Positions 1-25,508 of a DNA stretch of 64,000 nt are shown here, piece by piece. A program made the translations under genes and the position numbers. Positions within the stretch are counted from its first letter, which is position 1, and every line of letters begins with the position of its first letter. Where the stretch lies: assembly GCF_010731775.1 (NCBI RefSeq), contig NZ_AP022590.1:1984001-2048000 (forward strand). Reading direction: 5' to 3'. The DNA is from Mycobacterium mantenii (GTDB lineage: Bacteria; Actinomycetota; Actinomycetes; Mycobacteriales; Mycobacteriaceae). The notes under the pieces were generated by a model that was not told the origin of the DNA, did no database searches, and worked only from the letters and a program-made list of their open reading frames with translations.

Positions 1-219
1 CTCCTGACAATGAGCGCCCAATCTGGCACACGCAATTCCGCCTACCCTGAATGGACAACACCAAACGACGGATTAAAGTGTTCTGGTAGGAAATCCGACA
101 CGCGTGGCGTCGGTCCGATCGCGGCGACGGCGCCGCTATCCACCGCCGGTCGCCGCGCCCGGTATCCGGGAAAACATCACGCAATAGTTGGCAAGTTGAC
201 AGTTTGGGAGGGGACTTGC

Positions 220-981: not shown

Positions 982-993
982 GCAGCCGCTCGG

Positions 994-1992
994 CTAGCCG
1001 GGGATCCGGCCGAGAATCAGGTTAGCGACGGCCAGAGCGGCTTGCCGGCTGCGGTCGGCGGTCTTGGTGGAACATGCTTCCAGGTCGATGGTCACGTTGG
1101 CCTTGGCGGCGAACGCGTGCACGCAGAAGATGTGGATCGGCGTCTGCGGCACCAACTCCATGGTGCTGATGCCGTTGCCGGCATCGACGGGCGGCTTCAT
1201 CACGACCGGGTAGGTTTTCCCGTTGGGCCAGGTCGCATGCAGGGTAGAGCCGCCGCATTGACGCATGACTGACTGCAGCCTGGTGAACTGCGCCTGTGCC
1301 GTCGCCGAGTCGTGGAATGCCGCGACGGCCTGGGCGGTGACCCACTGGTTGTAGGGGTCGTGGGTATCGGCAAATTCCGACGCGGAGAACCCGAGGATGG
1401 CCGGGACGTCGTAGCCCTCCGGGGCGCCGGCCTCCATGACCGGCCAGCAATCCGGGCGGTCGCTGCTGCCCCGCTCAGGGTCGGGCGTGGGTTGGTGTAA
1501 CGCTCGCTGCGCGGTCAGAGCGTGGTCGCCGGTGATGCTCTCGGCGTCCTCGAGGCTGGGCAACAACCCGTCCATATCGGCCGGTGCGACGGTGGGTGGT
1601 GGAGGTGGCGTCGTGGTCGTCGTGGTGGCGGTGCGCGCCGTGGTCGTGGTGGTCGTGGGTGCTGCCATCCGAGTCGTGTCGGTCTTCACCGTTGCGCCGA
1701 CGATCAGGACGACCACCGCCGCGGTGATGAACACGTACGACAGCGTCACCCCCACCAGGGCGCGATCGCGGCCGCGCTGCCCGGTGCGGCGGATCTGCGC
1801 TAAACCCAAGTGCCCCAGGATCAATCCCGCCGGGGCGAAGACGAACGCGAACACCACCGACAACGTCGCCAACACATTGGCCTCATCGCGTGATGGCATC
1901 GGAGGTGGTTGCGGCGGCTGCTGGTGCGGCCCCGGCGGACCCGAACCGAACGGATTGGCCTGAAACGGGCTGGGACCGAAGGGATTCGACAT
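994..1992 (-). CDS. Membrane protein with PknH-like external sensor domain (paralogue 4)
   Basis: 332-aa protein, last gene of the long operon. Order: proline-rich cytoplasmic tail with NPFG repeats (residues 1-35), a two-helix DUF4190-like membrane domain with the loop QIRRTGQRGRDRA, a Thr/Pro linker, then an external domain of about 180 aa resembling the PknH/LpqA-type sensor domain (GLLPSLEDAESITG, RPDCWPVM, CGGST, DAGNGISTME). The start MSNPFG at 1992 matches its paralogues and follows the previous stop by 4 nt; in-frame upstream codons would lie inside that gene. It has four external Cys rather than the two in its sisters, so possibly a second disulfide. Ligand unknown. Confidence 0.85.
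   Translation of the reverse strand: MSNPFGPSPFQANPFGSGPPGPHQQPPQPPPMPSRDEANVLATLSVVFAFVFAPAGLILGHLGLAQIRRTGQRGRDRALVGVTLSYVFITAAVVVLIVGATVKTDTTRMAAPTTTTTTARTATTTTTTPPPPPTVAPADMDGLLPSLEDAESITGDHALTAQRALHQPTPDPERGSSDRPDCWPVMEAGAPEGYDVPAILGFSASEFADTHDPYNQWVTAQAVAAFHDSATAQAQFTRLQSVMRQCGGSTLHATWPNGKTYPVVMKPPVDAGNGISTMELVPQTPIHIFCVHAFAAKANVTIDLEACSTKTADRSRQAALAVANLILGRIPG
1721..1890 (-). repeat. Near-identical block shared with 2691-2860
   Basis: The 170 bases encoding the two-helix membrane domain of paralogue 4 align without gaps to 2691-2860 in paralogue 3, offset 970; I count about 10 mismatches. The flanking sensor domains are far more divergent. This indicates recent duplication or gene conversion confined to the membrane anchor. 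Confidence 0.8.
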
Positions 1993-1996
1993 ACCG

Positions 1997-2962
1997 TCAG
2001 CCGGGGATCTTGTTGAGAATGAAGTTGGCGATTGCCAGGGCGGTTTGGCGGCTGCGGTCGGCGTTGCTGGTGGCCCATACTCCGACGTCGATGACCACAT
2101 TCGTCTTGGCGGCGATGGCACGGACACCGAAGATGCGGATCGGCGTGGCCGACACGTTGTCCATGGTGGTGATGCCATTGCCCGCATCGGCCGACGGCAT
2201 CATGGACAGCGGGTAGGTTTTGCCGTCCTTACGGGTCTCGTTCACCGTCGAACCGCCGCATCGACGCCAGATGGATTGCAGCTTGGCAAGCTGTGCCTGC
2301 GCCGTCGCCGCATCGTGATACGCGGCGACGGCTCCACCGATGCTCCACTGGTCGAAGGGTTCGTTGGTGTCGAGAAAATTCGACTCGGAGTAGCCGCCGA
2401 CATCTGACATGTCGTAGACCGCGGGCTCGCCGAAACCGAACGCGCCCAGGCAGTCCGGTCGGTCGATGGTGCTCGCCTGAGGATCGAGGGTGGGTCGGTG
2501 GTATGTCGCGTATACGGTCAGGGCGGTGTCGCCGGTCATGTTCTTGACGTCGTCCAGGGTTGGCAGCAGCCTGTCCAGATCGGCCGGGGCCACGGTGGGC
2601 GACGGCAGCCTTGGGGTGGTCGTCGCAGGCGCGGCCCGAGTCGGACTGGAGTCGGGCATGACCGTCCCCACGATCAGCGCGACCACCACCGCGGTGATGA
2701 ACACGTACGACAGCGTCACCCCGACGAGCGCACGATCGCGACCACGCTGCCCGGTGTGGCGGATCTGCGCTAAACCCAAGTGCCCCAGAATCAAACCCGC
2801 CGGGGCGAAGACGAACGCGAACACCACCGACAACGTCGCCAACACATTGGCCTCATCACGCGACGAGGCGGGTTGTGGCTGCGGCGGCGGCTGGTGTGGC
2901 CCCGGTGGGCCTGAACCGAACGGATTCGGCTGAAACGGACTGGCACCAAACGGATTCGTCAT
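1997..2962 (-). CDS. Membrane protein with PknH-like external sensor domain (paralogue 3)
   Basis: 321-aa paralogue of its neighbours: N-terminal MTNPFGASPF-type tail with NPFG motifs, DUF4190-like two-helix anchor beginning NVLATLSVVFAF, short Pro/Thr linker, external sensor domain with LLPTLDDVKNMTG, RPDCLGAF and CGGST. Start at 2962 is fixed by the conserved N-terminus and the 4-nt gap from the preceding stop. Two external Cys predict one disulfide. The external part is predicted to face the periplasm or cell wall; no ligand can be named. Confidence 0.85.
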   Translation of the reverse strand: MTNPFGASPFQPNPFGSGPPGPHQPPPQPQPASSRDEANVLATLSVVFAFVFAPAGLILGHLGLAQIRHTGQRGRDRALVGVTLSYVFITAVVVALIVGTVMPDSSPTRAAPATTTPRLPSPTVAPADLDRLLPTLDDVKNMTGDTALTVYATYHRPTLDPQASTIDRPDCLGAFGFGEPAVYDMSDVGGYSESNFLDTNEPFDQWSIGGAVAAYHDAATAQAQLAKLQSIWRRCGGSTVNETRKDGKTYPLSMMPSADAGNGITTMDNVSATPIRIFGVRAIAAKTNVVIDVGVWATSNADRSRQTALAIANFILNKIPG

Positions 2963-2966
2963 CGGC

Positions 2967-3974
2967 TCAACCCGGGATCTTATTAAGGATGTAGTTGGCG
3001 ATGTCCAGCGCGGCTTGCTGGCCCCTGTCGGTGTCCACCAGCACGACGTTGATGTCCACCAGCACATTGTTCTTGGCGACCAGCGCACGATCGTTGCGCG
3101 ACCGCAGCACGGGACCTTGCGCGGTCAAGACCATGGCGGTGATTCCGTTTCCGGCGTCTGAGGGGACACCCATCGACACCGCGATCGGCGCCGACTGCTT
3201 GCCCGGAGGCGGCAGGATATTCATCGTCGACCCTCCACATTTACGCCATATCGACACCAGGTTCGCCAACTGCCGTTGCGCGGCCGGCGGGTCCCGAAAG
3301 GCCATGAGCACCTGGCCCGCTTCCTTGAGGGCGGGTATGTCGTGGTCGTCGATCAGCACCAACCCGTAGTAACCAACGAGGGCTTGCGTATCGGTGTTCG
3401 GGGCGCCGCCGCCCATGACCGGCCAGCATTCGGGGCGATCTACGGATGCGCTGTCGGAGTCCGGGCCGGGCTTGAATGTCGGCGGCAGGGCAACCAGACT
3501 GGGGTCTCCCATGAACCGCTTGACGTCCTCGGGAGTCGGCAGCAACCCGGGCAGGCCCGTGGGCGTGACCATGGACGAGGGCGGTGCCGAGCTCGCACCG
3601 GTCGAGACCGCCGCACTGGTTCGTGACGCTGTCCGCGACGAACTGCCGTCGGACTGGGTCGCCCACGCCAGCACAGCCACCACCGTAAGCGTGATAACCG
3701 CATACGACAGCATCAATCCCACGATCGCGCGGTCACGGCCGCGCTCGCCGGAGCGGCGTATCTGCGCCAGGCCCAGATGCCCCAGCACCGCCCCGGCGGG
3801 CGCGAAGACGAACGCGAACACCACCGACAACGTCGCGAAGATGTTGGCGCGCGGTTGCCGCGGAGGCGGGGATGTGTACACCGGCGGGCCCGGCGGCATT
3901 CCGCCGTACGGAGCCCCACCATACGGGTTGCCACCGAAGGCATTGGGCCCGAACGGGTTCTGCGGATTGGTCAT
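2967..3974 (-). CDS. Membrane protein with PknH-like external sensor domain (paralogue 2)
   Basis: 335-aa paralogue. The cytoplasmic tail has NPFG, AFGGNPYGG and PYGG variants of the shared aromatic-glycine motif, followed by the DUF4190-like anchor (NIFATLSVVFAF, QIRRSGERGRDRA) and a Ser-rich linker. The external sensor domain (GLLPTPEDVKRFMG, RPECWPVM, CGGST) is the most divergent of the four and contains an insertion around the IDDHDIPALKEAG segment. Spacing is 3 nt from the upstream gene and 4 nt to the downstream one, so translation is probably coupled. Confidence 0.85.
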   Translation of the reverse strand: MTNPQNPFGPNAFGGNPYGGAPYGGMPPGPPVYTSPPPRQPRANIFATLSVVFAFVFAPAGAVLGHLGLAQIRRSGERGRDRAIVGLMLSYAVITLTVVAVLAWATQSDGSSSRTASRTSAAVSTGASSAPPSSMVTPTGLPGLLPTPEDVKRFMGDPSLVALPPTFKPGPDSDSASVDRPECWPVMGGGAPNTDTQALVGYYGLVLIDDHDIPALKEAGQVLMAFRDPPAAQRQLANLVSIWRKCGGSTMNILPPPGKQSAPIAVSMGVPSDAGNGITAMVLTAQGPVLRSRNDRALVAKNNVLVDINVVLVDTDRGQQAALDIANYILNKIPG

Positions 3975-3977
3975 GGC

Positions 3978-4946
3978 TCAGCCCGGAATCTTGTTGAGTA
4001 TCTGGTTGGCGACGTCCACCGCGGCTTGCCGGGCGCGGTCCACGCCGTTTCCGGTGTAGGACACCAACAAGTCGATAACGACGTTGGCCTTGGTCGCGAC
4101 GGCATGCACGGACATCTCGGTTTCGGTCACGAATTCCATCGTGGAAACCCCGTTGCCCGTCGAATTCGGGCCCTTCACTTGAAACGTGAACGGTCGCCCG
4201 TCCGGAAAGGTCACTTGCACCGACGGGCTCGCGCCGCATTTGCTCCATGTCGAAAGCATCTTCGCCTGTTGGGCCTGCGCGGTGGCCGAGTCGAGGAATG
4301 CCGTGATCGCCGAGCCGACCGCGACGGTGTTGTAGGGGTCGCCCCGGTCGATGAACGCCGGCATGTAGAACCCCAGCATCACTCCGGTGTCGTAAGAGTC
4401 CGGAATCCCGGCGTCGATCGCGACCTTGCACTCCGGGCGGTCGAGGGTCTGTCCCATGGCGTTGCCAATGTTGGGTCGGTGCAAGGTGGTGCCCGCTATC
4501 AGAAGTTGGTCGCCGGTAATGGTTTTGACGTCGTCGAGGCTGGGCTCCATGTTCGCCAAGTCGGAGGCCGCCACGGTGGGCGGGCGCGCTGTGGTGCTGG
4601 GCGTGGCGGTGCGGGCGGCGGGGCTGTCGGACCGGTTGACCACCGCCAAAACGCCTACCACGACGACGATTACCGCATACGACAGCACAATCCCGACCAA
4701 GGCGCGGTCCCGACCGCGCTGCCCGGTGCGCCGGACCTGCCGAAGACCCAAGTGCCCCAGGATCGCCCCGACGGGGGCGAACACGAACGCGAACACCACC
4801 GACAACGTCGCCAAGGTGTTGACCGGCCGCCGATCCGGTGGCGGCGTAGGCGGCGCCGAATACACCGGCGGTCCGGGAGGGGCGCTGCCGAACGGGGTAT
4901 CGCCAAACGGGTTGTGCTGAAATGGGTTCTGTGTGGGTTCGGTCAT
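3978..4946 (-). CDS. Membrane protein with PknH-like external sensor domain (paralogue 1)
   Basis: 322-aa protein, first of the four tandem sensor paralogues downstream of the GTPase gene. It has the tail MTEPTQNPFQHNPFGDTPFG, a DUF4190-like two-helix anchor (NTLATLSVVFAF, QVRRTGQRGRDRA) and an external domain with MEPSLDDVKTITG, RPECKVAI, SKCGAS and STGNGVSTME. Two external Cys. Start ATG at 4946 gives the conserved family N-terminus. Eighteen bases separate it from the GTPase stop, the only real gap in this stretch. Confidence 0.85.
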   Translation of the reverse strand: MTEPTQNPFQHNPFGDTPFGSAPPGPPVYSAPPTPPPDRRPVNTLATLSVVFAFVFAPVGAILGHLGLRQVRRTGQRGRDRALVGIVLSYAVIVVVVGVLAVVNRSDSPAARTATPSTTARPPTVAASDLANMEPSLDDVKTITGDQLLIAGTTLHRPNIGNAMGQTLDRPECKVAIDAGIPDSYDTGVMLGFYMPAFIDRGDPYNTVAVGSAITAFLDSATAQAQQAKMLSTWSKCGASPSVQVTFPDGRPFTFQVKGPNSTGNGVSTMEFVTETEMSVHAVATKANVVIDLLVSYTGNGVDRARQAAVDVANQILNKIPG

Positions 4947-4964
4947 GTTCGTCGCACCGAAGAC

Positions 4965-6146
4965 CTAGAGCACGCCGAAACTCGAGGTGACCCAGCGGAC
5001 CGGGTCAACACAGCGAAACGGGGCGATGCCGCGGGCGTGGAGCCGCTGACCACTGGGTGGCTGCCCGAGCGCGGACACCACGAAGAACCGGTGCCTCAAT
5101 CGCCTGGGCGTGGAAGGGTTTTCCACGCCGGCGATGATCGATCCGGCGTTGAGACGGGTCAGCAGGCTGCGCACCTCTTCGTGCAGCAGTTGACCGTCGT
5201 TGTCGTCGTAGAGAACGGAGTCGGAGGGATCGCGCAGATAGGCGGCGCCGGCGTTGGACATCACCATGCTCCACTCGGAGCCGTCGACATCCCGCAGCGC
5301 CCGCAGGGCGTCGAACTTCGACAGGATGACCGCCAGGCGCGGTTCGCCGGAGCCGATTGCCATCATCACGTTGTTGAGCACGCCGCGCGGGTCTCCCCCG
5401 CTGACCATCTGCGGGGGCAGCAGGTCCTGCAACTGGTCCCGAATCGATTGCACCCGAAGCGGATCGAACATGAAGAAGACGGCCTCGGCATTGCTGAAGA
5501 ACCGAAACGGCGGAGAATGCAGGTTTCCCGATTCCATGTCCTCGCCGGCGACGTCGCGTAGCACCAGGTAACGCTGCACCCCATGCCAGGTGCCCAGGCT
5601 GAAGATCAGTGGCTCGCGCTGGGTGGACGTCTGGGTCATCATCGTGGGCGTCGGCGGGATCAATCCGCGCTGCACGTACAGCGGTGTCTCGTAATGGGTG
5701 GTGTACGCGACGGCCGTCGAGCGCGTCGCGGGCGCCATCGCGAATCCGAGGTGCTCGCACAGCAGCTGCAGTTGCCGGACCAGCACGGCGATGTAGAGGC
5801 TCTTGCCGGTGGCGCGAGCACCCGCCATCGCGATGCAATAGGCCTGACCTTCGCGCCACCGGTCGGGCAACGTGAAGTGGCAGACCGGGCAGATTTCCAG
5901 GACGGGACCGCGCAAGGCCTGGGCGGCGATGTTCGGTGGCGGTGGACCGTTGTATCCGGGCGGGCGATCCCACCGGAACATCGGTCCGATGTCGGCTTTG
6001 GCGCCCAGGAACGCCGAGCCGACCTCGTCGAGGTAGCGGGGCGCGCCACTGGTGGGCGCCAACGTCCACAGGTGATGGTCGGGATCCAGAAGGGCAAAGC
6101 AGCGTGGACACTTCGTCAATATCGCCTGGGCAGCCGGAGCGCTCAT
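4965..6146 (-). CDS. Zinc-ribbon TRAFAC-type GTPase of a GTPase/GAP1 system
   Basis: 393-aa predicted cytoplasmic GTPase. Two CxxC pairs (CPRC at 13-16, CPVC at 86-89) form a split zinc ribbon. They are followed by a P-loop GARATGKS (109-116), a G3-type DVAG (198-201) after a run of hydrophobics, and SKFD (276-279) in the position of the G4 NKxD motif. This layout resembles the 'double-GTPase/DO-GTPase' families that I recall being found with GAP1-like proteins; assignment to a named family is inference. The start overlaps the upstream stop as ATGA, so translation is coupled. It is the only clear nucleotide switch in the operon apart from the tubulin-like protein and probably controls the complex. 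Confidence 0.8.
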   Translation of the reverse strand: MSAPAAQAILTKCPRCFALLDPDHHLWTLAPTSGAPRYLDEVGSAFLGAKADIGPMFRWDRPPGYNGPPPPNIAAQALRGPVLEICPVCHFTLPDRWREGQAYCIAMAGARATGKSLYIAVLVRQLQLLCEHLGFAMAPATRSTAVAYTTHYETPLYVQRGLIPPTPTMMTQTSTQREPLIFSLGTWHGVQRYLVLRDVAGEDMESGNLHSPPFRFFSNAEAVFFMFDPLRVQSIRDQLQDLLPPQMVSGGDPRGVLNNVMMAIGSGEPRLAVILSKFDALRALRDVDGSEWSMVMSNAGAAYLRDPSDSVLYDDNDGQLLHEEVRSLLTRLNAGSIIAGVENPSTPRRLRHRFFVVSALGQPPSGQRLHARGIAPFRCVDPVRWVTSSFGVL

Positions 6147-7075
6147 GTCAGGGCCCGTACCAGCCCGGCGGTGATCTCGTCGAGCACCTGCGGATGTGCC
6201 AGCAGTTCCGCGGCGGCGTCTTGCCCGGACCGCGGCGCGGGCAGCCGGGGCCCGGCGACACGACGGTCATCGGACAAGGTGATCAACGCGAACCCGCGGT
6301 GCACGCCGCTGGCCGGAAAGTCCGAACAGGCCACGGTGGCGATGTCGGTCCGCAGCCGCGACCAGCGCGCGCCCGCCGACCATCGCGGCTGCACCTTGCG
6401 CACCGCTTCGGCCAGCCCGATGCCCGGCCCGGGACCGTGGCTGTCCACCGAGACCTTGGTGACGTCGGCGCCGACGAGAACCGCGGCAACGTCGCGAATT
6501 CCCAGCGCGTCGGCCACCCCGACCGCCACGTCGGTCGCAGCGGCCGCGCTGCCGTCGGCAAACCAGGGCCGCATCGACGCCGAACTGTTCAGCGCGACAA
6601 CAAGTTCGGCCCGGGCCTGCTTGCGGTCCCGGCCGATCAGACGCCGCGCGGACGTGCGCGCCGCGGCCGCCAGCGGGCTCAGCGCGGTGTCGGCGACCGC
6701 GGTGACGTTGACTTCGATGTGGTGGCCGGCCGGACGCAACGCGGCGAACACCACCGCGGCGTCGCCGCTGACGTCGACCGGATCGAACAACACCTGCACC
6801 GGGTCGGCCTCGTCGGGCACGTCGTGCGCGATCGCCAGATGCACGACGGTGCCCGCACCGAATTGCGTCGTGAACGCGGGCCGGACGGCGATGGTGACGG
6901 GGCCGGTCAGCGAGGGCAGCACGACGTGCTGCGGGCTGGAACGCACCACGGACTGACCCGGTGCGCCCTGGACGTCGAGCGCGGCGTCGTGCACCGCGCC
7001 GGTGATGGAAATCGAAAGCGGCCCAACGGGTATATGCGCGCGCTGATTGCGTGCGGTCAGGGCATAGATCGGCAT
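6143..7075 (-). CDS. VWA-like protein with degenerate metal site
   Basis: 310-aa predicted cytoplasmic protein. An N-terminal beta-rich half is followed by a Rossmann-like half resembling a von Willebrand A domain. The expected MIDAS motif DxSxS appears as N163-S-S165-A-S167 (context VVALNSSASM), so the first metal-binding Asp is Asn. The start at 7075 was preferred to an ATG at 7090: GGAGGG lies 8 nt before 7075 and the ATG overlaps the upstream stop as TGATG. Its 3' end overlaps the GTPase start. The context suggests a scaffold or adaptor for the GTPase and the GAP1-like protein. Confidence 0.7.
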   Translation of the reverse strand: MPIYALTARNQRAHIPVGPLSISITGAVHDAALDVQGAPGQSVVRSSPQHVVLPSLTGPVTIAVRPAFTTQFGAGTVVHLAIAHDVPDEADPVQVLFDPVDVSGDAAVVFAALRPAGHHIEVNVTAVADTALSPLAAAARTSARRLIGRDRKQARAELVVALNSSASMRPWFADGSAAAATDVAVGVADALGIRDVAAVLVGADVTKVSVDSHGPGPGIGLAEAVRKVQPRWSAGARWSRLRTDIATVACSDFPASGVHRGFALITLSDDRRVAGPRLPAPRSGQDAAAELLAHPQVLDEITAGLVRALT

Positions 7076-11579: not shown

Positions 11580-11581
11580 GC

Positions 11582-14233: not shown

Positions 14234-14235
14234 GG

Positions 14236-17200
14236 TCAGAACGTCCCGCCCTCGGGGATCACCACGGGTGCAACGCCATCGAGCACCGGTCCACCCGCCG
14301 CGGCGCCGGCCGCCAGCGCCTCGGCCTCACGCTGGATCAGGTCGATCAGCGCGCCGGTGGCCGCATACACGTCGGGCGCCAGGTCGCGGAAGATGGGCGT
14401 GTTCGACGCCGTGGTGCGGGTCGGCACCGTCGTGAACGCCCCGCCCGGGGCGGCCCCGGCCATGTCCGCCGGAAGATATTGCGCCGCAACATCACGGATG
14501 GTCGTCAGCCACTCGACCGCCGCCGCGGCCCGGACGTCGGCGGTCTGGGCCTCGGCGATCCCCGGTACCCGGGACTGGACGCCCGGTGTGGTCGTGCCCA
14601 CCCGCAGGAATTCGCGCAGCAGTCCCTGCGCGGACAACGCGACGATGCCGCTGCGTGGGTCTTGCGAGTGCGCGTCGTAGAGCTCACGCAGCACGCTGTA
14701 GGGCCGCAGCGAGCGCATCACCGGCGGCTCGTGCGACTGCGCGATGGCCAGCAGGATCGATTCCAGCACCGCCGGCAACCAGTCGTAGGACGCCGTGAAC
14801 GCCGACGGTGGCGTCAGCAGCGGATTCGGGAAGTTCAGCCACTGTCCGCTGTCGGCGTCGTAGATCCGCACCGGCTCGGTGAACGGTGACGCGGGGATCT
14901 GGATGCGGCCCAGCAGTTGACCGACGAACCAGCCGGCCGTCATGGCGCGGCGCTCCTCGTCGGTCATCGGCAGCGACGCCGGCAACGGGCGCGAACGTCT
15001 GAACCGCCAGAAGGCGCCGCGCCCGGGCCCCGCGGTCTGAGCCCACTGCTGGGCGGCGGGCTTGAGCACCGAGTCGAACGCGAGCGGCGAATAGTTGGGA
15101 TACGAGCCGAAGATGTCGATGCGCGTCACGCTGTCCTCGTCGGACAGCGAACGCCCGTAGTTGTCCTTCGTCGCCTGGTCGATGCGTGGATTGTTGCGGA
15201 TGACCTCGAACAGTTCCCGGTCGACCGGTTGACCGGCGAACGGAATCTCGGAGAACTTGTAGCGGTACTCGGTCTGCTGGCCGGGGTGAACCCGCTGCAG
15301 CGCCTGGTCGTTCACGCTGGCCAGCGGTCGCGCCAACGACAACGCCTCGGCGAACTTGGTGGCGATGTCGCGACGGCGCGCCACCAACTCCGACTCCGAG
15401 GCTCCCGCACCCTGCACGTAGTCGCGCAGCGACACCTTGCAGAACTCCGCGAACGACTCCCCGGGCCGCTCGACGTAGAACCGGGCCCGGCGCAGCAATT
15501 CCACTGGGCGGGTGTGGATGTCGAACTGCGCGATCGAGGGCACCCGCGCGCGGCCGGTCTCCGGGTCGGTGCCCAGCGCCCGGGTGACCCAGGTGGCGGT
15601 GCGTTCGATCAGCCCGCCGGGTGCGGCGACACCGCCGGTGGTCTGCCACACCCCCAGGATCACCCGCGTGGTCGCCTCCTCGATGGCCGACTGCAAGGGG
15701 ATCATCGCGTTGGCACCGGCCACCGCCTTGGGCAGATCGGCCTCGTATCGTCCCTTGAAGGCCGTCGAATTGATCAGCAGCACTTCGTTGTTCGCCTCCG
15801 CGAACCGGCTGGGCACCAGTTCGTCGGCGTCGGCCGGCCAGGCCGCGTACTGATCGGTGGCCAGGCGGGCCAGCCCGACATCGGTCGGCGGCTCCGAACG
15901 GGCGATCTCCAGCTGAATCATCGCCTCGCTGAGGCGATCCCGCAGCGGCACCAGCAGTTCCACGCCCAGCACCCGCATCACGTCGGCGATGCGCGCGGCC
16001 GCGTCGGCGAACAGCTGACGGCGCACCGTCGCGCGGAACCCGTCCACCACGGCCGCCACGACCTGGTCGGTGTTGGTCATCACGCCGTGCAGGGATTTCA
16101 GCCCGGCGTCCACCTGCGGGGAGATCGCGACGATGTCGGGCGGCCCCATGGCGCCCAGCTGGGCAACCCCGGCAGTGAGTTGATCATCGATGTGGCGGCG
16201 CAGCTGGTCGACGACTTCGCGCGCAAAAGGCAGTCCCAGCGAGGCGATGGCCGCGCCGATCACCTTTTCGAGCTTATTGGCGAAATCCTGGTGCCACTGA
16301 AAAGCCATGGCGTAGGCAGCATCAGCGCACGCCCGCGTCAGCTCGGCCCGCCGGTTGTGCACGGCCTGTCGCATCGTCGGCACCCACTGTTCGGCCGTAA
16401 CGCCTTCCGGGTTGGGCAGGTGGTTGCGCAGCTGGCGGTCGATGAGGCCGTTGACCGTGGCGGCGACGGTGTCGGCCGTGAAGGCCTCGGTGCCGATCCA
16501 GCGGCCCAGCTGGCTCACCCGGGTCTGCTCGTCACCGGCGCTGGCCGGCAACCCCAGTTCGCCGCAGAGCGCGCCCCATTGGCTGGATAGCAGCGAATCC
16601 AATTGCTCGGTGCTCGACGCCGGATTGCCCTTTTGCATGTGACCCTCGAGCAGCTTGTCCACGCAGCTGCGGGCCAGCCGCTGGGCGGCGTATTCGGCGT
16701 AACGGTCGCGACCCATGCTCAGGCTGGAGAAACCGTAAGTGCCCCAGGGCAACACATCCCACGACGAGATGCCCCAGCCCAACAGGTCGCGGTCGCCCAC
16801 CGGCGACGCGGTGTTGCCCAGGTCGTAGGCGACGAACTGGTCGCTGGCCCGCCCGCTCATCATCAGCCCGGCCAGCCCGCGCGCCAGTCCCCGGTACACC
16901 GCGTACTGCGACCCGTCGCCGAACAGGGTGCGGTCAGCACCGATGTAGCGGCCTACGGGGAAGACCCGCGCGAACGGAATCGGTTCGCCCTCACCGTGGT
17001 GGTGCCCGAGTGCGCGCAGGATACGTACGTCGTGTTCGCGGGCCGCACCGGATTGACTGGCCACGATCTCGCCGAGCATCGCCAGCGCGTTGGCGCGCAC
17101 GCCGATGATGGCGCTCTGCGGCAGCGAGTCGAAAATGTCTGGGGTCACCATGAATACACCCATCAACCGGGGATCCAGTCCGGTGACCAGGGTCAGCAGC

Positions 17201-17781
17201 CGGCACACGTCCAGCGCCATCGACGCGCCCGCACCGCCGGCCATCGACGACACCACCAGCACCAGCGGCGGTTCGTTGGGGTCGAAGCGACCCATGCCCG
17301 GCACATCGACCGTCGACATCTCCGACACGGTTTCGACGCGAAACAGCGCGTCCCACGCGGCTTGCAGCCGGGCGTGGATTTCGGCGGCCTTGCTCAGGGT
17401 GATCATGCGCCCGATCGCCCGGTACTGCCCCGCGCCGGCGGAGATAGGGATCGACACCTCTTGCGGGCTGCGCGGCGCCCAGGTGGCGATGGTGTCCAGC
17501 GCCGATTCGGCCGCCAACCGCTGCGACAGCGCACCATCGAGAACGGCGTAACTGCTGCCCTGCGGTCCGCACCCGACGTAGCTGCCGCCCTGGGCGGGGA
17601 CGTTCGCCAGCCCCTCCGGGCCCGACTCCGCGGCGCTGGGCACGTCGATGTGGACGAATTGCCAACCGGCCAAAAGCTTTTCGATCCCAGCGGTGTGCAG
17701 TTCGGAGCGCAGCTGGTCCATCATCAGGGACAGCGTGGCGCCGCCGGAACCGCCGCAGCCCACTACCAGGAATCGTCGCAT
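14236..17781 (-). CDS. Tubulin/FtsZ-like GTP-binding protein (Tubulin_2 type)
   Basis: 1181-aa protein. The N-terminus has FLVVGCGGSGG (residues 4-14), a nucleotide-binding T1-like loop. Residues 178-189 (SSMAGGAGASMA) correspond to the tubulin/FtsZ signature G-box (GGGTGSG-like), preceded by a hydrophobic strand LVLVV. Spacing and the long helical C-terminus fit the bacterial 'tubulin-like' family rather than FtsZ itself, which is under 400 aa. It may assemble with, or be regulated by, the GTPase/GAP1 proteins of the operon. Start ATG at 17781 overlaps the stop of the VWA gene by one base. Confidence 0.75.
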   Translation of the reverse strand: MRRFLVVGCGGSGGATLSLMMDQLRSELHTAGIEKLLAGWQFVHIDVPSAAESGPEGLANVPAQGGSYVGCGPQGSSYAVLDGALSQRLAAESALDTIATWAPRSPQEVSIPISAGAGQYRAIGRMITLSKAAEIHARLQAAWDALFRVETVSEMSTVDVPGMGRFDPNEPPLVLVVSSMAGGAGASMALDVCRLLTLVTGLDPRLMGVFMVTPDIFDSLPQSAIIGVRANALAMLGEIVASQSGAAREHDVRILRALGHHHGEGEPIPFARVFPVGRYIGADRTLFGDGSQYAVYRGLARGLAGLMMSGRASDQFVAYDLGNTASPVGDRDLLGWGISSWDVLPWGTYGFSSLSMGRDRYAEYAAQRLARSCVDKLLEGHMQKGNPASSTEQLDSLLSSQWGALCGELGLPASAGDEQTRVSQLGRWIGTEAFTADTVAATVNGLIDRQLRNHLPNPEGVTAEQWVPTMRQAVHNRRAELTRACADAAYAMAFQWHQDFANKLEKVIGAAIASLGLPFAREVVDQLRRHIDDQLTAGVAQLGAMGPPDIVAISPQVDAGLKSLHGVMTNTDQVVAAVVDGFRATVRRQLFADAAARIADVMRVLGVELLVPLRDRLSEAMIQLEIARSEPPTDVGLARLATDQYAAWPADADELVPSRFAEANNEVLLINSTAFKGRYEADLPKAVAGANAMIPLQSAIEEATTRVILGVWQTTGGVAAPGGLIERTATWVTRALGTDPETGRARVPSIAQFDIHTRPVELLRRARFYVERPGESFAEFCKVSLRDYVQGAGASESELVARRRDIATKFAEALSLARPLASVNDQALQRVHPGQQTEYRYKFSEIPFAGQPVDRELFEVIRNNPRIDQATKDNYGRSLSDEDSVTRIDIFGSYPNYSPLAFDSVLKPAAQQWAQTAGPGRGAFWRFRRSRPLPASLPMTDEERRAMTAGWFVGQLLGRIQIPASPFTEPVRIYDADSGQWLNFPNPLLTPPSAFTASYDWLPAVLESILLAIAQSHEPPVMRSLRPYSVLRELYDAHSQDPRSGIVALSAQGLLREFLRVGTTTPGVQSRVPGIAEAQTADVRAAAAVEWLTTIRDVAAQYLPADMAGAAPGGAFTTVPTRTTASNTPIFRDLAPDVYAATGALIDLIQREAEALAAGAAAGGPVLDGVAPVVIPEGGTF

Positions 17782-20700
17782 CAGGTGCCCTCTCCGAACG
17801 GGTCGAATGGTTCTGGGTCAAATCGATAGGAGGGCTGCGTCGCCTCGGTCGGCGGGAGCCCGGGCGGCCCGCTTTCGTCGCGCTCATCGCCCTGTTGGCG
17901 CTCGCCGCGCTCCTCGCCGTACGGGTAGCCCGCCGCCATCGTGTCGTCTTGGCGGGGAATGGGTTCGGGGATCGGCCGTTCTTGCGTCTCCGCCTCATTG
18001 AAGCCCGGCGGCACCGGCCCGGTCGCGGGGGGCGGCGGCGCGAAGGGCGGCGGTGCAAAGGATTTCGGAGCCGGCGGCGCCGAAGGTGGCGCTGGGGCGG
18101 GCGCTCCCCCGAACGGCGAATCGCCGCCACCGAAGGGATCGTCTCCGACCGGTCCGGCCACGACGTCGGCGGGAGTGTCACCGAACGGTGAGGCCGTCTC
18201 GCCCGGCGCCGCGAACGGTGCCGTCATGCCGGCCTGCACGGCCCGCAGCCGCAACCCGGTGAGCAGGTCGGGCAGCCGTTGGGCGATGTCCTCGTAAATC
18301 CGCTCACGCGCGGTCGTGTCGGTGGTGCCGGCCACCAACAGCAGCACCTCGGCGGCGTTCTCGGGGCCGTACGGGTTGTGCAGCAGCACCCAGGTGTTGT
18401 GCACCGCCAGCGGCAGCACCCCGCGCAGGCCGGTCTTGTCCGATCCGGGCAGCTTCGACCCGGCGCTGACCAGGCCCTCGGCGTCGACGACGACATGGCC
18501 GGAACCGAATGGGCTGCGCCCCATCACAACCGAGAGAGTCACGCCGGTCACCGACAGTTGGCGGGTGCCGCCCGGCGGCAGCCCGGTCACCGGTTGCACC
18601 AGGTCGGTGTCGGCCATCGCGAACGGTTCTCCGCCGCGCAGCACCGCGTCGTGCTCGACCTGCACCGGGATGCGTTCGGCGAGCAGCGGATTGTCGGGGA
18701 TCTTGCTGACCCACCACTTGGACGCATACAGCAGCGCCAGCGGGATCCCGGGGCCCAGCAGCAGCGCGGCGATGAGCACCAGGACGAAGTTGATGGTGTT
18801 GAGCGGGTTGATCATCGACGCCGTGAAGGCCACCGGCACGGTCTGGGCGTCGTCGGGATTGTCGAGCGTCGAAACATGTACGGGCACAGTGCCGTTGAGG
18901 CCGCCATGGCCGTTGTGATCGGTGTGCAGGGTGACCGATAGCGGTGCGGTCTCCCCGGCCTGCACCTTCAGGCAGTGCTGGCCCGAATTCGTCGGTGACC
19001 CCAGGTGCGGCATGCCGATGCCGTCGGGTGCGCCCGAGACCGTCGCGGTGTCGGCGTCGCTGATCCAGGCGCAGCCCGGGCCAGTGATGTTCAAGCTCGC
19101 GGTCGCGCCCTTGGCTCCCTCCACGGTGCCGAAATCGATGCGCTCACCCGGGGTGGGCAGGCCGACCTTGGGCAGAATCTGCACCGGCACATCGACTTCC
19201 TGCGGTGACAACTGGGTGCCGGCGATGGGCCCGCCGTTCAAATCGGTGGTGGACGCGGTGGTGATCACCAACGACATCCGCAGCGTCGCGTGCCCGGGCG
19301 TGACTTTGGTCAGGTCGGCGTCGACGGGTTTGGCGATGTCATCCTTGCCCGCCGCCGTCAGCAGCGGAATCGGTGCGGCGCCGTCGGGACCCAAGGATGC
19401 TGACATGGTGGCCGAGCCGGCTAAGTCCGCCGGTGCTATCGGCTTGCCGTGGCCGTCAACCAGACCGAACACCAGGCCCTTGAGGGTCTGGCCGCTGTGC
19501 CAGGCGACTTTGTCGGCGCCCGTCAGGGCCGGGAAGATGTCGGTGGTGATGTGAATGCTGACCTTGGACACCGCGTCCGGGTGCTGGCCGGTGGTGTCGA
19601 CGTAGACGATCGCCCACTGCCCGCTCCAGTGCGGGGCGTTGCCGTTCTGCAGCGAGATCGTCTGCGCCGATTCGGATTGCCATTGATAGTTCACCGAGAC
19701 GCCGTCGACGTTGACGTTTTGGGCGCCGTCGTTCTTGGGCAGGGGCAGGGTCTGCCCGGTCGGGGAGACGAGGTAGGGCTCGACCCCGGGCACGCCGCCG
19801 GAGCCCAGGATGTTGACCTCTTTGATGGACCGGTCCAGCACGAAGTTGTGCCGCGCCTCGGGGCACACCTTGATCTGGCACACCCCGCCCTGGTCGGTCA
19901 CGCCGGGATCGGGGTTGAGGGCGTCGAACGCGAACAGCATGTCGTCGATATTGGCGACGGGAAAGAAATCACCGGGCACTGGATCGGTGATGGCGCCGCA
20001 CGCCATGCCCTGCAGCCCCTTGCCGGTGCTGATCGCCGACATCACGTTGAAGTCACCTGGAGTCTGCTTGGCGCCCAGCCCGATTCCCAGCATGATGATG
20101 TTGCTCGACCGCAGCTGGTCGGCCAGACCGCTGGGTCGGCAGATGGATTGCACGGCCTTCTGGGTGGTGTCGGGGATGCCGTTGGGTGAGTCCAGCTTGA
20201 CCCCGTCGGCGTAGGGTTTGGCGACCGGGCGGGCGGTGAAATCGATCATCCCGTCGGAGAACCAGGCAATGGCCTGGCAGCGCTGACCTTTGTCGGCCGT
20301 GCCGCCGTGCGCGGTCAACGCCTGCCGGGCACCGTCGAGGGCCAGCCAGTAGTCGGTGTCGATGCCGGTGTTCTTCTTGGCGATGGGATCCAGCGACGCG
20401 CCAACGCTGTCGGCGGTCGAGCCGGTGAGCTGGGTCCAATCATGTTCGGGGACATATGTGTCGGAGAACCCGGCAACCGCGACGTCGAGCTTGGCGCTCA
20501 CCCGGTCGGCGTACTTGCCCAGCGTCTGCACCAGGTAGCGGGCGGCTTGCACGCGCGCGGCCTGCGGGTCGGTCTGTTGCAGGCTGCTCGACTCGTCGAA
20601 CAACAGCAGCAGATCGCCGGCCTTCTGCGAGGCCAGGCACGCCCCGAATCGGCTCGCCCCGGGCGAGCCGGTCGCCGACGCCACCGGCGCCCAGCCGACC

Positions 20701-20795
20701 AGGTTCAGCACCACGACTAAGGAAGCGGCCGCGAGCACGCGCGCCAGCATCGCAATGCCGTTGCGGCCGCGTGGTATTCGGGACGAGTGGGCCAC
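17781..20795 (-). CDS. Membrane-anchored VWA-domain protein with external beta domains and NPF-like tail
   Basis: 1004-aa type I membrane protein. A GTG start at 20795 (TAGTG overlap with the upstream stop) is chosen; ATG at 20750 is the alternative. A signal peptide ends near ASATG. An external VWA domain has an intact MIDAS (D67-E-S69-S-S71) and a later FSDG. Several Ig-like beta regions follow, then one transmembrane helix at about 668-690 (INFVLVLIAALLLGPGIPL). The C-terminal cytoplasmic region of about 310 aa is proline-rich and carries ASPFGD, DDPFGG, DSPFGG and DPFGEG. The layout suggests an external ligand or matrix receptor linked to the cytoplasmic GTPase/tubulin machinery. Confidence 0.8.
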   Translation of the reverse strand: MAHSSRIPRGRNGIAMLARVLAAASLVVVLNLVGWAPVASATGSPGASRFGACLASQKAGDLLLLFDESSSLQQTDPQAARVQAARYLVQTLGKYADRVSAKLDVAVAGFSDTYVPEHDWTQLTGSTADSVGASLDPIAKKNTGIDTDYWLALDGARQALTAHGGTADKGQRCQAIAWFSDGMIDFTARPVAKPYADGVKLDSPNGIPDTTQKAVQSICRPSGLADQLRSSNIIMLGIGLGAKQTPGDFNVMSAISTGKGLQGMACGAITDPVPGDFFPVANIDDMLFAFDALNPDPGVTDQGGVCQIKVCPEARHNFVLDRSIKEVNILGSGGVPGVEPYLVSPTGQTLPLPKNDGAQNVNVDGVSVNYQWQSESAQTISLQNGNAPHWSGQWAIVYVDTTGQHPDAVSKVSIHITTDIFPALTGADKVAWHSGQTLKGLVFGLVDGHGKPIAPADLAGSATMSASLGPDGAAPIPLLTAAGKDDIAKPVDADLTKVTPGHATLRMSLVITTASTTDLNGGPIAGTQLSPQEVDVPVQILPKVGLPTPGERIDFGTVEGAKGATASLNITGPGCAWISDADTATVSGAPDGIGMPHLGSPTNSGQHCLKVQAGETAPLSVTLHTDHNGHGGLNGTVPVHVSTLDNPDDAQTVPVAFTASMINPLNTINFVLVLIAALLLGPGIPLALLYASKWWVSKIPDNPLLAERIPVQVEHDAVLRGGEPFAMADTDLVQPVTGLPPGGTRQLSVTGVTLSVVMGRSPFGSGHVVVDAEGLVSAGSKLPGSDKTGLRGVLPLAVHNTWVLLHNPYGPENAAEVLLLVAGTTDTTARERIYEDIAQRLPDLLTGLRLRAVQAGMTAPFAAPGETASPFGDTPADVVAGPVGDDPFGGGDSPFGGAPAPAPPSAPPAPKSFAPPPFAPPPPATGPVPPGFNEAETQERPIPEPIPRQDDTMAAGYPYGEERGERQQGDERDESGPPGLPPTEATQPSYRFDPEPFDPFGEGT

Positions 20796-21358
20796 TACAG
20801 CGTCCCCGCCCACAGCGCGATCTGCCAGGCCCCCACTGCGATCCCGACCAGGCAGACGACCAGCACTACCCAGTACAGCGTGGACGTCCAGGTGGGCGCC
20901 GAATAGATGGCCTCGGTGCGGCGCCTGGTGTCGACCCGGCTGAACACCGCCAGCGCACCGATGGCCAGCGGCCCGGCCAACAGCCATCCCGAGACCGCGG
21001 CCGCAATCATCGGGCCGCCCAACGCGCTCGCGGCGGCCAGGGCCACACCGACGAGCGCCAGCGCCAGGGCCACCGCGAACCACACCAGCGGCGGGCCCGC
21101 CGTCGTCAGCGTGCCGGCGCCCGCCGGGCTCGCGGTGAGTTGCCCGAACGCGTCACGCCCACCCGTCGGGTCGAACGCCGGTGCACCGGCCGGACCGCCA
21201 AACGCGTCGGGCCGCGCCGGCCCCTGGTTGGCCCACGGATCGAATCCCCCCGAATGACCCCCACCCGGCTGCCCCTGCACCGGCGGCTGAGCGCCACCCG
21301 CCGGGGCCTGCCTGCCGGGGCCGAAGTCGCTGAAGTCAAAGGGGTTGGGTGCGTTCAT
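20795..21358 (-). CDS. Proline-rich three-pass membrane protein of the GTPase operon
   Basis: 187-aa protein. The cytoplasmic N-terminal 85 residues are Pro/Gly-rich with NPFDFSDFG, FDPW and DAFGG, the same aromatic-glycine style as the other membrane proteins here. Three hydrophobic segments follow (VWFAVALALALVGVALA; AAAVSGWLLAGPLAIGALAVF; LYWVVLVVCLVGIAVGAW). No external domain, so it may act as a membrane platform. It lies 10 nt after the preceding gene and overlaps the VWA start. No recognised family. Confidence 0.7.
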   Translation of the reverse strand: MNAPNPFDFSDFGPGRQAPAGGAQPPVQGQPGGGHSGGFDPWANQGPARPDAFGGPAGAPAFDPTGGRDAFGQLTASPAGAGTLTTAGPPLVWFAVALALALVGVALAAASALGGPMIAAAVSGWLLAGPLAIGALAVFSRVDTRRRTEAIYSAPTWTSTLYWVVLVVCLVGIAVGAWQIALWAGTL

Positions 21359-21368
21359 TTTTCGTATC

Positions 21369-22055
21369 TCAATACGGATTCAGGCATAGGGCAAAGGAAC
21401 GGTCGGGGGGCGCGGCCACGTACACCGAATTGCATTGGTTGCTCGAGCCCACCCGGGCGGCAACCGTGTACACCCCGTCGCGGTGTTCGCAGTCGACGCC
21501 GAACAGGTCCAGCGCGTCATTGCCCGTGCTGTTGCGCAGCTGAAGCTCCACGCAGGTGCCGATCGGCACGGTCGCGAGGTCGAGCTTGGGGCCGCGCGGC
21601 ACCGTGGTCGGGGGCGCGACCGACGTGATGGTTCGGGGCGGCATTGGCGGGGGCAGAGCGGAACTGGACGCGGTCGCCGGCGTCGAAGTGCTCGGGCGGG
21701 TTCCCCAATAGACGCCGCCGAGGATCAGCAGCACACACATCAGGTAGCCGATCACCAGGCCGGCGATCGCGGCCGGGCGTCCTCTCTCGCCGCTGCGATT
21801 GATCTGCGGCAATGCGAGATGGCCCATCACGATGCCAGCGGGCGGAACGATCACCCCGAAGATGGGCGAGAGCACCGCGAGCGTGTTGTAGTCCGCGCGC
21901 GGCGGCTGCCCACCGAAAGGCGGCCGCCCGCCGAACGGTGCGCCCGGGTATCCGACCGGGGTCGTCGGCGCACCGCCGTACGACACGGTGGGCGGCGGTC
22001 CGCCGAACGGGTCGCCGGACTGCGGCGCAAACGGATCTTCGTTGGGATACATCAA
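21369..22055 (-). CDS. DUF4190-like membrane protein with septum-formation-like external domain (copy 2)
   Basis: 228-aa protein: cytoplasmic Pro-rich tail with EDPFAP and GDPFGG, a two-helix DUF4190-like anchor (NTLAVLSPIFGV, QINRSGERGRPAA), a Pro/Thr linker, and a small external domain of about 75 aa with four Cys (GTCVELQ, VDCEHRDG, NQCNSVY, FALCLN). This Cys spacing resembles the mycobacterial 'septum formation' domain found in lipoproteins and kinases. Ligand unknown. Start ATG at 22055 (a second ATG follows directly). Confidence 0.75.
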   Translation of the reverse strand: MMYPNEDPFAPQSGDPFGGPPPTVSYGGAPTTPVGYPGAPFGGRPPFGGQPPRADYNTLAVLSPIFGVIVPPAGIVMGHLALPQINRSGERGRPAAIAGLVIGYLMCVLLILGGVYWGTRPSTSTPATASSSALPPPMPPRTITSVAPPTTVPRGPKLDLATVPIGTCVELQLRNSTGNDALDLFGVDCEHRDGVYTVAARVGSSNQCNSVYVAAPPDRSFALCLNPY

Positions 22056-22124
22056 TTCGCCCCACCGGCCATAGCGGCGAACCGCTGTGTTGTGCGACGA
22101 GAGACGTTTCGGTGCGGCCCCATC

Positions 22125-22805
22125 TCAACCCTTGAAGTCGACGATGCAGGCGTACACGGTCTTGGTGTGGTTCCACAGTGTCGTGGGGGTCTTGCAGGAG
22201 TCGTTCGACAGCAGCTGGGTCACTTGCAGAACGCCTTCGCGCACCTCGCACCTGACCGGATAGATGGTGATGAAATCCGCCTTCTCCGACGGGTCCGGCT
22301 TGTTCTGCTGGACCTCGATGCAGTCACCCACCCGAAGGTCGCTGACGGAGACGCTAGGGCGCTGCGCGGGCGGGGGCGTGATCACCGTCGTGCGCGGCGG
22401 CGTCGGCGGCACGTACGGGCTGGGGGCCGCCGTCTTCACCGTGTTCGAACCGGATCCGCCGCTGGTCGCCAACCAGACCGCGAGCGCGCCGACGGCCAGC
22501 ACGATGATCAGGTACGAGGCCGTCAGCCCGAAGATGGCGCGGTCGCGACCGCGCTGGTGGCGCTGGCGTATCTGGGACAGCGCCACGTGGCCCAGCGCCG
22601 CGCCGGCCGGCGCGAAGACGAACGCGAAGATGGCCGACAGCGTGGCCAACGTGTTGACCTCGGGTTTCGGCCCCGACGGAAAGCCCCCGGGGCCCGCGGG
22701 CGAATGCCCGGGCTGGCTCGGACCGAATGCCGGCCCCTGGCCACCGGGCTGCCCCCCGAAAGGGTCGGCGCCGAACGGATCTTGATAACCACCGCTATAT
22801 GTCAT
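22125..22805 (-). CDS. DUF4190-like membrane protein with septum-formation-like external domain (copy 1, first gene of operon)
   Basis: 226-aa protein and the promoter-proximal gene of the operon. The tail carries QDPFGADPFGG; the anchor is NTLATLSAIFAF with QIRQRHQRGRDRA; the external domain has four Cys (GDCIEVQ, VRCEVREG, DSCKTP, YACIVD), parallel to the following gene. GAGGGG lies 5 nt before the ATG at 22805. A gap of 69 nt to the next gene is the largest within the operon's upstream half. Confidence 0.78.
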   Translation of the reverse strand: MTYSGGYQDPFGADPFGGQPGGQGPAFGPSQPGHSPAGPGGFPSGPKPEVNTLATLSAIFAFVFAPAGAALGHVALSQIRQRHQRGRDRAIFGLTASYLIIVLAVGALAVWLATSGGSGSNTVKTAAPSPYVPPTPPRTTVITPPPAQRPSVSVSDLRVGDCIEVQQNKPDPSEKADFITIYPVRCEVREGVLQVTQLLSNDSCKTPTTLWNHTKTVYACIVDFKG

Positions 22806-23172
22806 CGGTGCCCCTCGATGCAGGGCCGGAGCTGGTCACCCATCCCCCTCATCAACCGCCATCCCATTCCCCGTCAACGCCAGTCGGCGGCGTGCACCAT
22901 CACCACCTGCCCAGAAACTTGTGACGTCCAACCGCAACAAATCAAGATAGTCGGTGCAGCCACGACGCACTCTTTTTCCACCAGAAGCACCTCTCGGTAC
23001 TGCTACATATAGTGCTGCGCCGCGCACGCGCGCAATTTAGGTCGCGGCCCAGCATTCGCCATCCGGTCTGCTCCGACGTTAACTGCAGTGTCGGATAGCC
23101 GAGTTGAACCGAATGCAAACGTTAGCTAACCAGCACCCGAGGCGGCCCGGGCAATTAGCTCATCCGCGCACG
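22806..23172. other. 367-nt gene-free region upstream of the GTPase operon
   Basis: No convincing ORF on either strand. It must carry the promoter of the 14-gene operon transcribed leftward. Towards the operon it holds an A/T-richer stretch (22940-23015) with minus-strand TATATG and TATCTTGAT elements that could be -10 boxes, but no clear -35 partner. The right half follows the stop of the amidase gene, also leftward. A separate promoter is likely given the distance, yet read-through cannot be excluded. Confidence 0.4.
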
Positions 23173-23952: not shown

Positions 23953-23968
23953 CGCGCGATGGTAGCAA

Positions 23969-25225: not shown

Positions 25226-25508
25226 CGAACCTCCAGAAGCCGGTAGAGCACTGCGACACAAGGCATATGGGCCTCGGGGCGATGTGGTTCATGCGAACGA
25301 GACGAATTCATCTGACGTTCGGCCAATCCGACGCTCGATGCCCATGCGATCAGTTTGCTGCGGCCCCGGTTGCGCCGGCTCCCGACGTTGAGTCACGTTT
25401 CCCACAGATTGCGACATGCCATGCGAAATGTCTCCGTGCGCAACGGGTCTTATGCAACCCGGGCGACCGACTATCGCACCATACTAAAAGGTCTGTTACG
25501 GTCGGGGC

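Follow-up and report, generated by a model that had tools for sequence, protein, structure and literature searches.

A tubulin-like/GTPase gene block of Mycobacterium mantenii with a shared, possibly docking, motif in its membrane proteins

The 14 minus-strand open frames at 994–22805 of the Mycobacterium mantenii window (the 64,000-nucleotide stretch of chromosomal contig NZ_AP022590.1 that was analysed) form one block, which we tentatively read as a mobile, membrane-anchored, nucleotide-driven tubulin/GTPase scaffold onto which membrane proteins dock by a [DN]P[FW] motif (probability roughly 0.4). Start codons were chosen by us, and the genes are named g1–g14 in transcription order. The features are as follows:

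982..23172, unstranded: entire block, missing at the equivalent site in two relatives (L123 and L124)
22806..23172, minus strand: upstream region of g1 (367 nt), likely operon promoter region
22125..22805, minus strand: g1, DUF4190 membrane protein (2.3e-10), C-terminal part with four Cys; motifs DPFG twice
21369..22052, minus strand: g2, DUF4190 membrane protein (4.9e-14), C-terminal part with four Cys; motifs DPFA and DPFG
20795..21358, minus strand: g3, membrane tether, core; three hydrophobic stretches; N-terminal tail with NPFD and DPWA; in 72/80 loci
17781..20750, minus strand: g4, exported VWA protein, core; VWA_2 1.6e-4 (below cut-off); tail with DPFG twice
14236..17781, minus strand: g5, tubulin-like protein (Tubulin_2/FtsZl1), core; Tubulin_2 4.7e-46
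11582..14233, minus strand: g6, membrane hairpin protein, core; predicted model pLDDT 87.7; in 79/80 loci
9561..11579, minus strand: g7, possible FN3-type scaffold, core; weak fn3/HRDC matches in few members; in 77/80 loci
7075..9564, minus strand: g8, GAP1 protein, core; GAP1-N2 2.3e-19, GAP1-M 3.4e-9; in 72/80 loci
6143..7075, minus strand: g9, N-terminal domain of no recognised kind plus TerF-like VWA, core; vWA-TerF-like in 12/44 members
4965..6146, minus strand: g10, zinc-ribbon DO-GTPase, core; DO-GTPase2 3.9e-5; 30/34 members
3978..4946, minus strand: g11, DUF4190 (8.1e-13) and PknH_C (5.8e-20) membrane protein; motifs NPFQ and NPFG
2967..3974, minus strand: g12, DUF4190 and PknH_C (2.3e-28) membrane protein; motif NPFG
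1997..2962, minus strand: g13, DUF4190 and PknH_C (1.3e-32) membrane protein; motifs NPFG twice
994..1992, minus strand: g14, DUF4190 and PknH_C (3.2e-31) membrane protein; motifs NPFG twice

The genes had been predicted to run leftward as one unit, mostly less than 20 nt apart, and they do: from g1 to g14 the spacings are 72, 10, 44, -1, 2, 2, -4, -1, -4, 18, 3, 4 and 4 nt (negative values being overlaps), with 11 of the 13 junctions at 18 nt or less. The longest gap adjoining the block, upstream of g1, contains blocks conserved across five related loci, [AG]GYTAA[CT] repeats among them, and is likely the promoter region of all 14 genes. Among loci whose flanks extend at least 5 kb upstream of the tubulin gene and 9.3 kb downstream of it, 59 of 61 contain all of g3–g10 in the same order, which excludes a chance association. 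The block behaves as a unit in its presence and absence: the two relatives that lack it have a clean empty site, flanked by the 3' ends of a cutinase and an amidase gene that converge on it. Tubulin_2 proteins are patchily distributed (39/394 genomes of the genus, 6/150 of the order and 17/396 of the phylum), and the tubulin tree is for the most part arranged by family. Such clusters have been reported as associated with multicellular bacteria; genera that we take to be non-mycelial contribute many of the 80 loci.

Tubulin_2 is matched by residues 5–374 of the 1181 in g5 (158 bits versus a Pfam cut-off of 27), the single such match in the genome, and the conserved T4 loop reads AGGAGAS where FtsZ has GGGTG(S/T)G. 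The predicted model of g5, which 53 related sequences underlie, has helices at residues 390–629, with long ones at 463–543 and 571–629. A profile comparison with 20 FtsZ proteins gave no match, and the T7 loop could not be placed by profile. g8 matches GAP1-N2 (70.3 bits versus a cut-off of 24) as well as GAP1-M; in a few mycobacteria GAP1 is shortened (three loci) or was not found (one block). The DO-GTPase2 match of g10 (23.9 bits) lies under the 27-bit cut-off, and 30 of its 34 relatives match at E <= 0.01. Within the g10 family, Walker A, DxxGE and SKFD motifs and E202, the Walker B Glu, are found in 63/63 members and two CxxC pairs, which would make one zinc ribbon, in 62/63. The tubulin-fold, GAP1-like and zinc-ribbon TRAFAC GTPase proteins of the original prediction are recovered, and the block fits the membrane-spanning system of GTPase/GAP1/tubulin type that it described; the nucleotide-binding residues of g5 and g10, whose loss was to have counted against it, are intact. 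Its two VWA-type proteins are likewise found in g4 and in g9, although for the latter through the family, the window protein having no VWA match of its own. The first MIDAS residue of g9 is Asp in 62/71 members and Asn in 9/71, including the window protein. The FN3 scaffold proposed for g7 fares less well: fn3 is matched by 4/45 family members (best E 0.017) and HRDC by 1/45, all weakly (E > 0.01).

The core membrane proteins are g3, g4 and g6. g4 has an N-terminal hydrophobic signal (residues 1–27) and a membrane stretch (645–677), followed by a presumably inner domain and a disordered tail; its VWA domain, with an intact MIDAS (Asp in 74/75 family members), would lie outside the cell and its tail inside. 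The predicted model of g6 comprises an N-terminal alpha/beta domain, two long helices (487–557 and 562–641), within which hydrophobic stretches lie at 532–563 and 564–589, and a C-terminal domain. A two-pass tether and seven surface-exposed membrane proteins had been listed previously; we amend that list for g3, in which there are three hydrophobic stretches and no outer domain of appreciable size. The Septum_form profile, also suggested previously, matches none of the 14 proteins.

DUF4190 is found in six proteins (g1, g2 and g11–g14), four of which (g11–g14) also match the PknH_C profile, as had been anticipated (5.8e-20 to 1.3e-32). PknH proteins are mycobacterial sensor kinases with a PknH_C domain; g11–g14 share that domain, but by Pfam have DUF4190 in place of a kinase domain. 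DUF4190 genes adjoining the core are seen in mycobacteria only: among 20 core-bearing genomes of other genera, none has DUF4190 on the contig of the tubulin gene at a distance of up to 50 kb, or up to the contig end where that is nearer. In eight mycobacterial blocks (the window and seven fetched), their number varies from 0 to 2 upstream and from 0 to 4 downstream, while g3–g10 are nearly constant. The six DUF4190 proteins are a variable mycobacterial add-on outside the conserved machine. Tandem sensor-domain proteins had been proposed as coupled to a membrane-spanning machine; the membrane-spanning part of that proposal stands, but the sensor-like proteins do not belong to what is conserved.

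The scaffold reading builds on gene content and order, the conservation of nucleotide-binding and MIDAS residues, the distribution of the motif, and presence or absence as a unit. Beneath the membrane there would be the tubulin-like g5, the GTPase g10, partnered by the GAP1 protein g8, the g7 scaffold and g9 as a VWA switch. The helical hairpin of g6 would anchor this core to the membrane, to which g3 and g4 would also join it, the outer VWA domain of g4 reaching outside. The [DN]P[FW] motifs repeated in the g3 and g4 tails, which would lie inside, would dock onto one cytosolic component, and in mycobacteria up to six DUF4190 proteins bearing the same motif, up to four of them with the sensor-type PknH_C domain, would serve as plug-in outer sensors. 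A signal from outside might then alter docking or the GTPase state, and with it the assembly of the tubulin-like protein; the output that we favour is local envelope reorganisation upon outside stress.

In the window, [DN]P[FW] motifs are present in g1–g4 and g11–g14 (eight of the block's nine membrane proteins) and absent from g5–g10. This pattern could mark a membership tag: a short-linear-motif code through which a single cytosolic tubulin/GTPase scaffold recruits differing numbers of otherwise unrelated membrane proteins, with sensors gained by tagging. We consider this possible but less likely than not. Multivalent NPF motifs in the disordered tails of membrane-linked proteins are docked by EH domains in eukaryotic endocytosis; the block resembles that arrangement in the multivalent NPF-type motifs of its membrane-protein tails, a likeness and not a membership. 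Pfam matches of the 14 proteins include no EH domain, remote versions of which may escape Pfam. It is doubtful, but deserves weighing, that the motif is a by-product of low-complexity Gly/Pro/Phe tails that act as self-associating general stickers, with no docking tag. Either F or W occupies the aromatic position, and the g3 and g4 tails of Corynebacteriaceae lack the motif in 4/4 loci, those of Corynebacterium despite Gly/Phe repeats. Against such an origin, motif counts in the g3 and g4 tails are far above those in shuffles of the same tails, and none of 30 DUF4190 proteins taken from system-free genomes, many with Gly/Pro/Tyr-rich tails, has motif clusters. The motif is also missing from 10/72 g3 and 9/72 g4 tails elsewhere, and thus, given the Corynebacteriaceae as well, is not obligatory for the core. 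Across loci, single motifs occur in 30/451 g5–g10 frames (12 of these in g6), and 3/24 DUF4190 frames in the seven fetched mycobacterial blocks are motif-free. No F-to-W covariation between g3 and g4 was observed (of 63 loci, one is W-type in both and eight in only one). In the DUF4190 proteins, the loop between the two hydrophobic stretches has three to six positive residues; by the positive-inside rule, tail and sensor domain would both face outwards, except in the case of a re-entrant first stretch. These tails may therefore be outside the cell, which counts against docking.

A biological-conflict system of antiviral or suicide type, in which the GTPase and GAP1 set a threshold and the tubulin is an effector that assembles once an invader is sensed, is the reading of Kaur et al. 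2020 (PMC7159879, section on this system). The domain set agrees with the actinobacterial theme described there, and the patchy distribution and the clean gain or loss of the block in one piece are in keeping with it. However, no effector domain, whether toxin, nuclease or of another kind, exceeds its Pfam cut-off in the 14 proteins; a PADLOC scan of nine of them (all but g2, g3 and g12–g14) gave no credible match, only a weak partial one for g1 (E 0.0037); variation between mycobacterial blocks concerns sensor-type membrane proteins rather than effectors; and the tubulin tree runs largely by family. We consider this explanation unlikely. Less likely again is a membrane-remodelling or vesicle-forming machine with tubulin-like filaments (Makarova and Koonin 2010; PMC2875224), to which the predicted fold of g5, the g6 hairpin and the VWA and GTPase partners, as in FtsZl1 neighbourhoods, would be suited, but for which filament formation is hypothetical, with the T7 loop of g5 not placeable, and from which the sensor-type add-ons, suggestive of signalling, point away.

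Judged from its domains, the core of our scaffold is known from both publications. The actinobacterial tubulin-type GAP1-N2/DO-GTPase system is a computational prediction (Kaur, Burroughs, Iyer and Aravind, eLife 2020; PMC7159879), and the statement in the original prediction that such clusters had been proposed computationally as conflict systems is correct. As described there, that system shares with the block a zinc-ribbon DO-GTPase, GAP1-N2, a membrane VWA protein, a single tubulin with a C-terminal helical part and a weakly FN3-like second protein. Its DO-GTPases usually have two zinc ribbons, where the Cys pairs of g10 would give one; its second protein is FNIII-HRDC, where the g7 family has the few weak matches given above; and its membrane VWA protein has FNIII and a beta domain, where g4 has a sub-threshold VWA, a membrane stretch and no FNIII match in a Pfam search of the window protein. 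The same section makes no mention of g3 or g6, of DUF4190/PknH_C genes, of the shared motif or of a mobile block. FtsZl1 and its gene neighbourhoods (Makarova and Koonin, Biol Direct 2010; PMC2875224), which we equate with Pfam Tubulin_2 on our own reading, share the FtsZ-like N-terminal domain, the long helical middle, VWA and GTPase neighbours (here g4, g9 and g10) and membrane proteins. The T6-H7 elements and a tubulin-type C-terminal domain were not identifiable in FtsZl1 in 2010, whereas the predicted model of g5 aligns to CetZ and tubulins past the helical middle, up to residues 920 and 1019, an indication that the tubulin fold may be more complete than was then recognised. We found in the literature no experiments on the tubulin/GAP1-N2/DO-GTPase system and no functional study of FtsZl1-type tubulins after 2010. 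What is new here is the conserved eight-gene order, the DUF4190 add-on, presence or absence as a unit, the shared motif and the predicted fuller fold. The eight-gene core g3–g10 offers a minimal machine for reconstitution, and the empty site permits comparisons with and without the block. A reviewer of PMC2875224 asked in what way an FtsZ-like protein of the cytosol could act together with VWA proteins that are exported, and if the parts for filaments are present; the shared tail motif would provide a concrete, testable physical link between the two. Should the tag prove genuine, it would be an uncommon bacterial example of modular recruitment through motifs, a counterpart of NPF-type adaptor docking, and an answer to how FtsZl1 and VWA proteins are linked.

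The genome that carries the block is 6.19 Mb in length and consists of a single contig. The original prediction of 14 leftward genes at 994..22805 is borne out, as 14 minus-strand genes (g1 to g14 in transcription order) occupy 994-22805. The genes around the block are as follows:

10-981, plus strand: cutinase gene, outside the block
23173-23952, minus strand: N-acetylmuramoyl-alanine amidase gene, outside the block
23949-25292: 447-aa protein, upstream of the amidase gene

The 447-aa protein had no match in a Pfam search; it is 51-57% identical in relatives, where the flanking amidase and acyl-CoA dehydrogenase are at least 90% identical. Upstream of g1, positions 22806-23172 contain possible regulator sites: blocks there are conserved across five related loci, among them three spaced [AG]GYTAA[CT]-type repeats and, around CACTATATGTAGCAGTACC, a longer block.

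Eight of the 14 genes form a core: g3 (membrane tether), g4 (exported VWA protein), g5 (tubulin-like), g6 (membrane hairpin), g7 (possible FN3-type scaffold), g8 (GAP1), g9 (TerF-like VWA) and g10 (DO-GTPase). Profiles of the 14 proteins were built from 80 loci, the best 80 of 96 relatives from one scan of named genomes with the tubulin alignment. Each of families g3-g10 was detected in 69 to 80 of these best 80 loci, though many contigs or stretches end early. Gene order was examined in the 61 loci whose sequence reaches 5 kb or more upstream and 9.3 kb or more downstream of the tubulin gene, and g3-g4-g5-g6-g7-g8-g9-g10 was found in that order and strand in 59; within the stretch examined, L056 lacks g10 and L072 lacks g3 and g4. 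Core-bearing families are Mycobacteriaceae, Nocardiaceae, Gordoniaceae, Propionibacteriaceae, Micrococcaceae, Microbacteriaceae, Brevibacteriaceae, Corynebacteriaceae and others.

GAP1 is short in three mycobacterial loci (L024, L025 and L044), since just ~1.1 kb separates g7 from g9, and the rest of the core is kept; no GAP1 match was found in the block of genome G373 (L191/L192), which also keeps the remaining core. Three Rhodococcus loci (L035, L043 and L085) have a second GAP1-profile frame downstream of the g10 GTPase. In the block of genome G368 (L193/L194), g7 is broken into three frames, through either a frameshift in the gene or an error in sequencing.

Most membrane proteins of the block share a short motif, scored in the window as [DN]P[FW] with G, D, A, N, S, E, Q or P as the next residue. 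It is present in 8/8 of g1-g4 and g11-g14 versus 0/6 of g5-g10; the carriers are eight of nine membrane proteins, since g6 is also one. At the DNA level, the window has 12 copies of RAYCCNTTYGG versus 1.16 expected, with 11 of the 12 inside motif-carrying genes. Across 72 loci with both tails, which are related and hence not independent, the g3 tails hold 97 copies of [DN]P[FW] in 62 loci and the g4 tails 161 copies in 63 loci; shuffled tails of the same loci give ~6 occurrences. Both tails show this excess in Mycobacteriaceae, Nocardiaceae, Gordoniaceae, Propionibacteriaceae, Micrococcaceae and Brevibacteriaceae; it is absent from 4/4 Corynebacteriaceae loci and from g4 in 2/2 Microbacteriaceae. 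Clusters (two or more motifs within 40 residues) are found in 19/33 g1/g2, 23/72 g3, 48/74 g4 and 15/27 g11-g14 frames. Among g5-g10 frames there are 0/451 clusters and 30/451 single motifs, and among other frames 5/14473 clusters, which look like two cut g4 tails, the truncated start of a DUF4190 gene and two decayed frames immediately 5' of g3. In seven further mycobacterial blocks, the motif occurs one or more times in 21/24 DUF4190 frames. As a control, 30 DUF4190 proteins (those given loci, of 46 matches) were taken from 12 genomes of the genus that lack Tubulin_2, the family matched by g5, and they contain no clusters and three single motifs; [DN]PFG is absent from all five DUF4190 matches elsewhere in the host genome, one of which has a single NPFD.

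By charge and signal-peptide reasoning, the g3 and g4 tails read as cytosolic, so a cytosolic core protein may be the motif reader and would bind these tails. The DUF4190 proteins have 3 to 6 Lys/Arg in the loop between two hydrophobic stretches, and because of this positive charge we tentatively place their tail outside, on the same side as the sensor domain; this would change if the first stretch, which contains Pro and Gly, is re-entrant. We are thus unsure of a common reader for the DUF4190 proteins and g3/g4: the strong sharing of the motif argues for it, and the loop charge against it.

DUF4190 genes adjoining the core on its strand were found in mycobacterial loci only (among the best 80 loci, where most stretches end near g10). 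Because of these early ends, 20 genomes of other genera were checked by family searches: Tubulin_2 was found in 20/20 and DUF4190 in 19/20, and in none of those 19 does a DUF4190 match share a contig with the tubulin gene at a distance below 50 kb (the closest is ~50 kb away; some contigs are short). Two Williamsia loci have a DUF4190-matching frame upstream on the opposite strand. On the strand of the core, the number of DUF4190 genes in the window and the seven further mycobacterial blocks ranges from 0 to 2 upstream and from 0 to 4 downstream. Just 5' of g3, L016:6149-6532 and L028:6221-6634 each hold a short frame with the motif pair DPFG..NPFG, the rest of the DUF4190 protein being gone; these look as if they were decaying.

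Empty sites were sought through amidase relatives in 40 genomes of the genus, and eight stretches beside good matches were compared. In two (L123 and L124), cutinase and amidase are convergent with ~21 nt between aligned ends, the sequences can be aligned as far as the 3' end of each gene, and no match to the 14 block genes was found. Of the other six, one has both flank genes in a different arrangement and five have no cutinase match there. The window and G368 show the occupied site with both flanks; L007, L010, L011 and L029 show it by the amidase side. None of six flank genes was found around 6/7 of the further mycobacterial blocks, and the block is therefore located elsewhere in those genomes. 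Counting the own genome, Tubulin_2 occurs in 39/394 genomes of the genus, 6/150 of the order and 17/396 of the phylum. The tubulin-like protein of the window is 97% identical to that of M. colombiense strains, which places the host close to this species within Mycobacterium. A tubulin tree made by a quick method from 65 of 81 rows, after removal of near-copies, tracks families on the whole, with the long-branched Mycolicibacterium row L069 grouping with Gordonia. We conclude that the block is gained or lost as a unit, either of which may have happened at the window site, and that descent is mostly vertical with some transfer. Two records are probably mis-binned or mislabelled: L021, titled a Solirubrobacterales MAG, has a tubulin-like protein 82% identical to that of the window and clusters with mycobacteria, and L032, titled Rhodococcus, is labelled a cyanobacterium by the tree tool.

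The block is a variant of an already known type. The description of this type of system in Kaur et al. 2020 fits the window locus (PMC7159879), and Makarova and Koonin 2010 describe a tubulin-like family with VWA and GTPase neighbours, proposing membrane remodelling (PMC2875224); both accounts are predictions. Parts of the core may already be listed in figures or supplements of these two papers; relative to their text, the present analysis adds the shared motif, a core of eight genes, sensors as add-ons and an empty site.
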